Assembly (NCBI GenBank): GCA_003281525.1
Contig: QCBT01000006.1
Coordinates: 1 to 64,000 of the forward strand
DNA from: Prochlorococcus sp. AG-347-J06
Lineage (GTDB): Bacteria; Cyanobacteriota; Cyanobacteriia; PCC-6307; Cyanobiaceae
Direction: 5' to 3'
DNA length: 64,000 nt
The translations under genes and the position numbers were made by a program. Positions 8,458 to 20,782 of the stretch are shown here, in pieces. Below the pieces are notes generated by a model, which ran no database searches, was not told where the DNA came from, and saw only the letters and a program-made list of their open reading frames with translations. Within the stretch, counting starts at the first letter, position 1, and every line of letters begins with the position of its first letter.

Positions 8458-8551
8458 GACTCGGCCTTTCGCGGTTTTAACGCCTAAACCTGGTCAGGAC
8501 CGGAAGGTAGCAGCCACAAGGGATGCTTGAGGCAGGCGAGATAACCGAGTC
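8458..8551 (+). ncRNA. ffs: signal recognition particle RNA (4.5S/SRP RNA, small bacterial type)
   Basis: The ends pair (GACTCGG at 8458-8464 with CCGAGTC at 8545-8551), and the centre contains the conserved Ffh-binding hairpin: GGTCAGGACCGGAAGGTAGC followed by AGCC and GGGATGC. This GGAA tetraloop with flanking asymmetric loops is the signature of bacterial SRP RNA. It partners Ffh, encoded at 35131-36735, in targeting membrane proteins co-translationally. The gene sits between panB and the 3' end of ftsZ. Confidence 0.95.
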
Positions 8552-8566
8552 ACTCTATTTTACCTT

Positions 8567-18793: not shown

Positions 18794-18798
18794 CAAAG

Positions 18799-18880
18799 TG
18801 GGAGCGGTCGGACTTGAACCGACATACCCGAAGGTGCCGCATTTTGAGTGCGGTGCGTCTACCAATTCCACCACGCTCCC
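18799..18880 (-). tRNA. tRNA-Leu (CAA)
   Basis: An 82-base class II tRNA on the minus strand: acceptor stem GGGAGCG with CGCTCCC and discriminator A, D-arm GGTGGAATTGGTAGACGC, anticodon stem CCGCA/TGCGG around loop CTCAAAA (anticodon CAA), a long variable arm typical of leucine, and T-loop TTCAAGT. CCA is not encoded. The argD start codon follows 5 bases after the discriminator base, so the tRNA and argD are probably on one primary transcript. Confidence 0.96.
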
Positions 18881-18913: not shown

Positions 18914-19122
18914 ACAAAAATCAATTTATTGACTATTGTTTGGGTCAAGGAGCAGTGATCAAGATAACGTTTTTTAATAGTTAATCTTTTCGATAAAAAC
19001 ATAGATTTATATTTATTGCATTTGCTGACAAGAAATAAGATAAAAAAGAAAATTTAAGCATTTATGACACATTTTTGTGATTAAATACGAGTAAAAGTCT
19101 TTTTTTGAAAGGAGATAGCTTC

Positions 19123-19167
19123 ATGATTAGTAATATTGTGTTATATTGGATAAAAAAACATGTCTAA
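19123..19167 (+). CDS. 14-residue leader-like micro-ORF with strong ribosome binding site
   Basis: The ATG at 19123 opens MISNIVLYWIKKHV then TAA. It is preceded by AAAGGAG (19108-19114), a near-perfect Shine-Dalgarno sequence 8 bases away, which stands out because most genes here lack one. The frame overlaps the start of the next micro-ORF by 8 bases. It could be a short hydrophobic peptide or a leader that lets ribosomes enter the next frame. Translation is inferred, not shown. Confidence 0.35.
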   Translation: MISNIVLYWIKKHV

Positions 19168-19267
19168 AATCCAAGCTAAAAAATTATCCCTTAGATTTGC
19201 CCCTTACCTTTTTATTGCAGTTACTATACTGACAACATTCGGATCTAATAGTGGAACTTGGGCATGA
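19160..19267 (+). CDS. 35-residue putative membrane micropeptide
   Basis: The ATG at 19160 gives a 35-residue peptide: a basic N-terminus (MSKIQAKKLSLR), one hydrophobic segment (about 13-28) and a short Ser/Gly-rich tail. The start lies inside the preceding 14-codon frame and the stop overlaps the next start as ATGA (19264-19267). This chain of overlaps is the pattern of translationally coupled genes. The N-in, single-pass topology resembles small subunits of photosynthetic or transport complexes, but I recognise no family. Confidence 0.45.
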   Translation: MSKIQAKKLSLRFAPYLFIAVTILTTFGSNSGTWA

Positions 19268-19374
19268 ATGAATTCAAATTTAATGGCTTAAATAAAATTT
19301 GGTCTAACCGTTTTCTAGTTTTGTTTATATTATTTTTAGGTTGTATTTCACTAATAAATATTGCTTACGTTTGA
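19264..19374 (+). CDS. 36-residue putative membrane micropeptide
   Basis: The ATG at 19264 overlaps the stop codon of the previous micro-ORF (ATGA). The 36-residue product has a polar N-terminal half with basic residues (MNEFKFNGLNKIWSNR) and a C-terminal hydrophobic segment (about 17-35). The gene ends 38 bases before the convergent end of murA. It looks like a partner of the 35-residue peptide; no homologue is known to me. Confidence 0.45.
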   Translation: MNEFKFNGLNKIWSNRFLVLFILFLGCISLINIAYV

Positions 19375-19411: not shown

Positions 19412-20782
19412 CTAAGCTGCTTCAAGCTTTGGAATTTTCTCAGATTTAGGACTAATTTTATATCCATTCTCCTCGAAAGTACTCTTACTGATCTCTCTAA
19501 TTATTTTTACACCTAAATTTTTTAGTTTTAATTCAAAATTTTCATAACCTCTATCTAAATGTTCTAATCCATAGATCTTACTACAACCTTTTGCGATGAT
19601 TCCTGCAATTATTAATGCAGCTGATGACCTTAAATCTGAGCCAACTAGATTCATCCCATTAATTGTTTTAACACCTTTAATGTGAGCTACATTTTTGTTT
19701 AGTTTTATACGGGCGCCCATTTCATTAAGTAAATAAATGTGATTCATTCTGTTTTCGAAAATTGTTTCAGTTATCTTTGATTCACCATTTGCGATTGTCA
19801 TTAGAGCTGTAAATGGTGCCTGCAAATCAGTAGGAAAGCCTGGAAAAGGAGCTGTTTCAATATCTACTCCTTTAATCGCTTTACTCTTGATAGAAATCGA
19901 ATTACCTTTAATCGTAATTTTACTGCCACTCTCTTGAAGCTTATTAGTAACAGCTTCAAGGTGATGAGGGATTACTGGAGAAATTGTTATTGAAGAGGAA
20001 GTTGCAGCAGCAGCTATTAGAAAAGTTCCAGCTTCTATTCGGTCTGGAATTACTTTATGGGTACATCCGCCAAGCTTATTAACACCATCAATGATAATTG
20101 TTTCTTTACCGGAGTCATAAATTTTTGCCCCCATTTTATTAAGCATTTGGCATAAATCTTGAACTTCAGGCTCTCTAGCAGCATTTTCAATAGTAGTTCT
20201 TCCTTTAGCTAAAGATGCTGCCATTATTAAAGTTTCAGTCGCACCTACACTTGGACACTTTAATTTAATATGAGTGCCATGAAGTCTATTTTTGTTTCCT
20301 CTTATTATTGCCTTGACAATTCCTTCTTCAATAACTATGTCTGCTCCTAATGCGATTAGTCCATTAATGTGCTCATCTATTGGCCTTGAGCCAATATTGC
20401 ATCCACCTGGTAAAGGTACTTGAGCTTCTCCAAATTTAGTTAATAGTGCACCTATACAAAAGAAACTAGCTCTTAATCCTTTAACAAGTTCATATGGAAG
20501 TTCCTTAATCGCAATAGTTGTTGGATCTATTTCTAGTTTGTTTTTTTTATGAACTAAATTCACTCCTAAATTTTTTAGGATATTCCCCATTTTTTCAATA
20601 TCAGTCAGAAAAGGTACATTTTCAAGAATTATTTTTTCATTAGTTAGCAATGATGAGGCTAATAAAACTAAGGCGGAATTCTTCGCGCCACTTATCTCAA
20701 CTATTCCATTTAACTTGCCTTGGCCAATAATCTTTAAATTTTGCGATTTAAGATATGACTTCGTTTTGCTTCCGCAAATCAT
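19412..20782 (-). CDS. murA: UDP-N-acetylglucosamine 1-carboxyvinyltransferase
   Basis: A 456-residue enzyme for the first committed step of peptidoglycan synthesis: transfer of enolpyruvate from PEP to UDP-GlcNAc. It shows the N-terminal GKLNGIVEISGAKNSALVLL, the catalytic loop LPGGCNIGSRPIDEH with the cysteine attacked by fosfomycin, KCPSVGATETLIMAA, and FPTDLQAPF. The final 30 residues or so extend past the usual end of the family. ATG start. Cytoplasmic. Confidence 0.96.
   Translation of the reverse strand: MICGSKTKSYLKSQNLKIIGQGKLNGIVEISGAKNSALVLLASSLLTNEKIILENVPFLTDIEKMGNILKNLGVNLVHKKNKLEIDPTTIAIKELPYELVKGLRASFFCIGALLTKFGEAQVPLPGGCNIGSRPIDEHINGLIALGADIVIEEGIVKAIIRGNKNRLHGTHIKLKCPSVGATETLIMAASLAKGRTTIENAAREPEVQDLCQMLNKMGAKIYDSGKETIIIDGVNKLGGCTHKVIPDRIEAGTFLIAAAATSSSITISPVIPHHLEAVTNKLQESGSKITIKGNSISIKSKAIKGVDIETAPFPGFPTDLQAPFTALMTIANGESKITETIFENRMNHIYLLNEMGARIKLNKNVAHIKGVKTINGMNLVGSDLRSSAALIIAGIIAKGCSKIYGLEHLDRGYENFELKLKNLGVKIIREISKSTFEENGYKISPKSEKIPKLEAA

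Follow-up and report, generated by a model that had tools for sequence, protein, structure and literature searches.

Conserved overlapping genes A and B encode a pair of predicted membrane micro-proteins in high-light Prochlorococcus

Results

Gene content of the locus

The window analysed here is the whole 64,000-nucleotide stretch from Prochlorococcus sp. AG-347-J06 (positions 1 to 64,000 of contig QCBT01000006.1), and its host is a high-light Prochlorococcus (g1 group). A tRNA-Leu(CAA) gene (18798-18880, minus strand; ARAGORN and Rfam) and a murA-type gene (19412-20782, minus strand) enclose an interval in which the plus strand carries three short frames and nothing else. Gene A (19160-19267) encodes a 35-residue protein, MSKIQAKKLSLRFAPYLFIAVTILTTFGSNSGTWA, with a basic N-terminus and one hydrophobic helix, and gene B (19264-19374) encodes a 36-residue protein, MNEFKFNGLNKIWSNRFLVLFILFLGCISLINIAYV, also with one hydrophobic helix; the stop codon of A and the start codon of B overlap in ATGA (19264-19267). 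The third frame, of 14 codons (19123-19167, plus strand), follows the sequence AAAGGAG (19108-19114, plus strand) and overlaps A by 8 bases, so that all three frames lie as a preliminary description of the sequence had placed them. The tRNA-Leu gene, which is divergent from the pair, was matched in 120 of 124 loci, and the convergent murA was found downstream on the opposite strand in 125 of 126; in most of them some 38 bases separate its end from B. No terminator was seen between B and murA, Rfam matched no known RNA family at the A/B locus, and the neighbours of the pair give no hint of function. Elsewhere in the window, Rfam placed the bacterial small SRP RNA (RF00169) at 8458-8554 on the plus strand.

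Conservation and selection on A and B

Of 49 g1 genomes, 39 carry gene A, and these 39 also carry B; in an even draw of genomes over the family, both were present in 34 of 35 g1 genomes. The pair is missing from 11 g1 genomes, none of which has a true murA match; in the five of them in which argD was checked, its ortholog is missing (three genomes) or lies near a contig end (two genomes). For these reasons a true absence of the pair in some g1 genomes was rejected and the missing copies are most likely assembly gaps; the pair occurs in every high-light Prochlorococcus genome whose assembly includes the locus. Two g1 assemblies (G023:C111:226-1398 and G040:C100:3-755) are broken close to argD, beside the tRNA-Leu/A-B/murA segment, which is a recurrent assembly gap.

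At the level of loci, the counts given below refer to 126 distinct A/B loci. When relatives were searched for both peptides in the same order, the distance from the start of A to the start of B was 104 bases in 126 of 126 loci, a constancy far beyond chance, and B is 36 residues long in 124 of them. The stop/start overlap is ATGA in 124 loci. In the remaining two, TGA has become TAA (ATAA) and the usual ATG of B is destroyed; both carry ACATGG just upstream, which provides an in-frame ATG for B 6 bases earlier. Every locus thus preserves an initiation codon where B begins, in line with the conserved overlap expected of a coupled operon.

The pooled pN/pS ratios were 0.214 for A and 0.232 for B, compared with 0.215 for murA from the same loci, and in the other two frames of A and B the ratio was 0.93-3.6, i.e. 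it is low only in the proper frames. Both genes are constrained like a housekeeping gene. Synonymous change in A and B is no slower than in murA (pS 0.34-0.39 vs 0.285), and there is therefore no sign of an overlapping RNA constraint. The frames are also conserved with respect to indels, as one possible frameshift in B (L005) and one 2-residue truncation (L064) were the only exceptions among the 126 loci. The L005 case (genome G036) is the insertion of one base into a run of T, which alters the C-terminus of B (38 residues), and either a sequencing error or a real frameshift is possible. From these patterns of conservation A and B are almost certainly expressed and co-selected genes. The two-component micro-membrane-protein system suggested in the preliminary description has thus held up, with a conserved pair, purifying selection at the codon level and a retained overlap.

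Features of the A and B proteins

Protein A consists of a lysine-rich start followed by a hydrophobic stretch (19-residue hydrophobicity maximum 1.6) that is short for a membrane span, and B is more hydrophobic (maximum 2.6). The AlphaFold2 models contain a single helix in each protein, at residues 3-29 in A (mean pLDDT 78) and 3-35 in B (mean pLDDT 82). Invariant residues include P15, F18, T25, F27 and W34 in A, and G8-L9-N10, W13-S14, R16-F17, C27, S29-L30, N32 and A34 in B. No family similar to A or B was detected in Pfam, NCBIfam or PHROGs, and the PDB search returned a single insignificant match, PsaJ (E = 1.6). The two proteins are not detectably related to each other and were rejected as paralogues. 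Phage origin or carriage was likewise rejected, as B has no match in phage records or viral contigs.

A promoter-like block in place of a leader peptide

The preliminary description had read the 14-codon frame as a leader serving translational coupling and preceded by an unusually strong ribosome binding site, a Shine-Dalgarno sequence rare in this genome. Neither part of that reading was retained. The ATG of the frame is present in 70 of 126 loci and lost in 56, its length varies between 7 and 55 codons, and only 65 of 126 loci have GGAG ahead of it, so a leader peptide with a Shine-Dalgarno sequence was rejected and the frame is judged spurious. A rare Shine-Dalgarno was rejected as well: AAAGGAG occurs 19 times in the window vs 15.7 +/- 3.9 in shuffled sequences, which is chance frequency, and the copy at 19108-19114 is most likely unused. 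Of the proposed chain of three translated frames, A and B therefore stand on conservation and pN/pS, and the 14-codon frame does not.

What is conserved in this DNA, whatever the frame, is a block that the 14-codon frame overlies. CTTCA precedes A in 126 of 126 loci, and the block CTTCA[T/C]...AGTAATATT[G/A]TGTTATATT is nearly invariant across all of them, with TGTTATATT, the part tested as an extended -10, conserved at a short distance before A. In the window (19120-19147, plus strand) it comprises a -35-like TTCATG, a 16-base spacer and an extended -10 element TG-T-TATATT (19139-19147); the -35-like element is TTCACA in the HLI-like (MED4-like) group. The block ends 12 bases before the ATG of A in the window, 11-16 bases in most loci and 20-23 bases in the HLI-like group. 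The exact 19-base block occurs only at the A/B locus, both in this genome and in G015, and copies with 3 mismatches are few elsewhere, their number in this genome being the same as in the reversed control. The window's copy has a weak -35, and a simple promoter scan left the block out for that reason. We consider it highly probable, on the strength of this conservation, that the block is the promoter of A and B.

From the position of the -10 element, transcription would start near 19154, leaving a 5' leader of about 6 bases (19154-19159, plus strand) with no Shine-Dalgarno sequence for A. Because the promoter-like block ends only about 12 bases before A, A appears to be read from a nearly leaderless mRNA. 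If the promoter is used, the 14-codon frame begins ahead of the first transcribed base, and the mRNA does not contain its start codon.

Further upstream, an imperfect dyad TGAYACA-N4-TG(T) (19065-19082, plus strand) is found 51-53 bases before CTTCA and the -35 region, about 80 bases ahead of the presumed transcription start. It was present at this position in 117 of the 125 loci with enough upstream DNA, and its G, C, A and TG columns are invariant among those 117; one divergent lineage (L029) carries the perfect dyad TGATACATTTTTGTATCA. Elsewhere in the window the motif occurs at chance level only. We regard the dyad as a candidate operator.

Distribution and origin of the pair

All 80 named loci matching B are from Prochlorococcus or Synechococcaceae single cells. 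Outside g1, the even draw over the family gave only weak partial matches, and neither low-light Prochlorococcus nor the other genera of the family have the pair. In one g83 and one g38 genome, murA, tRNA-Leu and then argD lie on one strand in the same direction, and the gap between murA and the tRNA gene is only 35-39 bases; in g1 it is about 530 bases and contains the operon. It looks as if the operon was either gained in g1 or lost elsewhere, gain being the simpler course. The g38 genome G088 also has a second murA-like gene (L193, G088:C1:1407540-1408820), 54% identical to the murA of the window and located off the tRNA-Leu site.

A 26-residue g83 peptide, MKLVPYIFMAVAIFSEVSTIATTPII, resembles the core of A (A-profile match E ~3e-4 per genome). 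When the peptide itself was used as the query, the best matches outside g83 were A loci of g1 with E = 0.015 and 0.039, and the similarity is no more than suggestive. The peptide occurs in about 25 g83 genomes, including L099 (G134:C1:418776-418853) and L100-L103, mostly at 100% identity, and the coding differences between L099 and L100 are synonymous only. It is probably a second unannotated micro-protein and possibly related to A.

Discussion

The preferred explanation of the locus, which we put forward tentatively and largely by analogy, is a clade-specific dicistronic micro-operon encoding a small accessory subunit pair of a larger membrane complex. RNA polymerase would start at the extended -10 promoter just before A and produce an mRNA almost without leader or Shine-Dalgarno sequence, on which A would be initiated at or near the 5' end. 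Ribosomes stopping at the UGA of A may restart at the overlapping AUG of B, and the conserved overlap makes it probable that B is produced by such termination-reinitiation; A and B would thereby be made together in a fixed ratio. Judged by hydropathy and charge, each protein would enter the membrane as one helix and keep its charged N-terminus on the cytoplasmic side, and the heteromeric A/B pair would then bind and stabilise the larger complex.

Many small photosynthetic and respiratory subunits bind and stabilise larger membrane complexes in cyanobacteria. The small single-span subunits of the photosystems, cytochrome b6f and NDH-1 (Psb, Psa, Pet, Ndh) resemble A and B in size (30-45 aa), in having one helix and no catalytic residues, and in being cyanobacterial proteins conserved at a fixed locus. 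A and B differ from them in having no sequence match to them in Pfam, NCBIfam or the PDB (PsaJ being the best), and in being confined to a single clade of genus rank, while the classic subunits occur widely. With no related family in Pfam, NCBIfam or PHROGs and a lone insignificant PDB match, the assignment of the pair as subunits of a larger complex rests on analogy, and we estimate its chances at slightly below even. Gene pairs coupled by ATGA share with A/B a strongly conserved four-base stop/start overlap; the present pair is unlike other such pairs in that both partners are micro-proteins and in that its first gene appears to lack a Shine-Dalgarno sequence and nearly all of a leader. Taken as a whole, A and B are best described as two lineage-specific small membrane proteins whose synthesis is probably coupled.

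In strain MED4, 113 small ORFs were detected by microarray, 14 of them previously undetected (PMC2518516). The peptide-coding Yfr6 and Yfr9 transcripts and the 113 new small ORFs are similar to A and B as conserved small ORFs with short independent Prochlorococcus transcripts that annotation had missed. The MED4 copy of A/B, near 1,252,488-1,252,754, is not covered by any of the newly identified ncRNAs for which Table 1 of the paper gives coordinates, and A and B could be among the small ORFs in its supplementary tables. A literature search, supplementary tables excluded, gave no direct mention of the locus.

The main rival holds that A and B, rather than being structural subunits, are regulators conserved together, which might for instance inhibit or chaperone a single transporter or protease. 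Micro-proteins with one membrane span commonly bind such proteins and adjust their activity, and the fixed upstream dyad suggests regulated expression; there is, however, no target candidate, and a constitutive component would explain the occurrence of the pair across the clade just as well. Sequence does not separate regulators of a single membrane protein from subunits of a complex, and we treat the regulator reading as a serious, if doubtful, possibility. Much less probable is a hydrophobic toxin-like pair in the style of type I toxins, kept in check by antisense transcripts that read through from murA. The small size and hydrophobicity of the peptides and the close, convergent murA with no terminator seen in between would suit such a system, and two peptide-coding ncRNA pairs of MED4 were suggested to be toxin-antitoxin systems in PMC2518516. 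The pair nevertheless sits at a single fixed site without decay in g1, its two genes are strictly co-conserved with pN/pS equal to that of murA, no known RNA family lies at the locus, and the synonymous sites bear no sign of an overlapping RNA constraint; antisense read-through from murA may still occur.

Two readings of the overlaps themselves are extremely unlikely. Programmed -1 frameshifting where A ends might join A and B into one protein, as the frame of B is -1 relative to that of A and the offset is constant; yet B keeps its own start codon in all loci, in two of them by moving to the upstream ATG, no obvious canonical slippery heptamer was seen by eye in TTGGGCATGA, and ATGA is a standard reinitiation signal. 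Equally improbable is a three-part system in which ribosomes would load at a strong Shine-Dalgarno sequence, translate a leader of 14 residues and pass by coupling to A and then B. The frame, AAAGGAG and the 8-base overlap are all present in the window and the ATG recurs in more than half of the loci, but its loss in the others, the variable length, the inconstant GGAG and the ordinary frequency of AAAGGAG count against it, and the DNA fits an extended -10 promoter.

Returning to the accessory-subunit reading, a bolder form of it, rather unlikely in its entirety, would have the micro-operon arise in the high-light ancestor, de novo or from an A-like low-light micro-protein, and encode, on a nearly leaderless dicistronic mRNA, an obligate subunit pair of a core membrane complex; as a part of the cell, the pair would define the clade and have no counterpart elsewhere.

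The high-light Prochlorococcus genome is among the most streamlined of any phototroph, and this clade still retains an insertion of about 500 bases between two housekeeping genes for the sake of A and B, proteins that gene length cut-offs have concealed. The compact promoter-A-B layout offers a clean case for studies of leaderless initiation and translational coupling. As a clade-wide and clade-specific pair under constraint at the level of murA, A and B are a clear candidate for a part in the high-light lifestyle.
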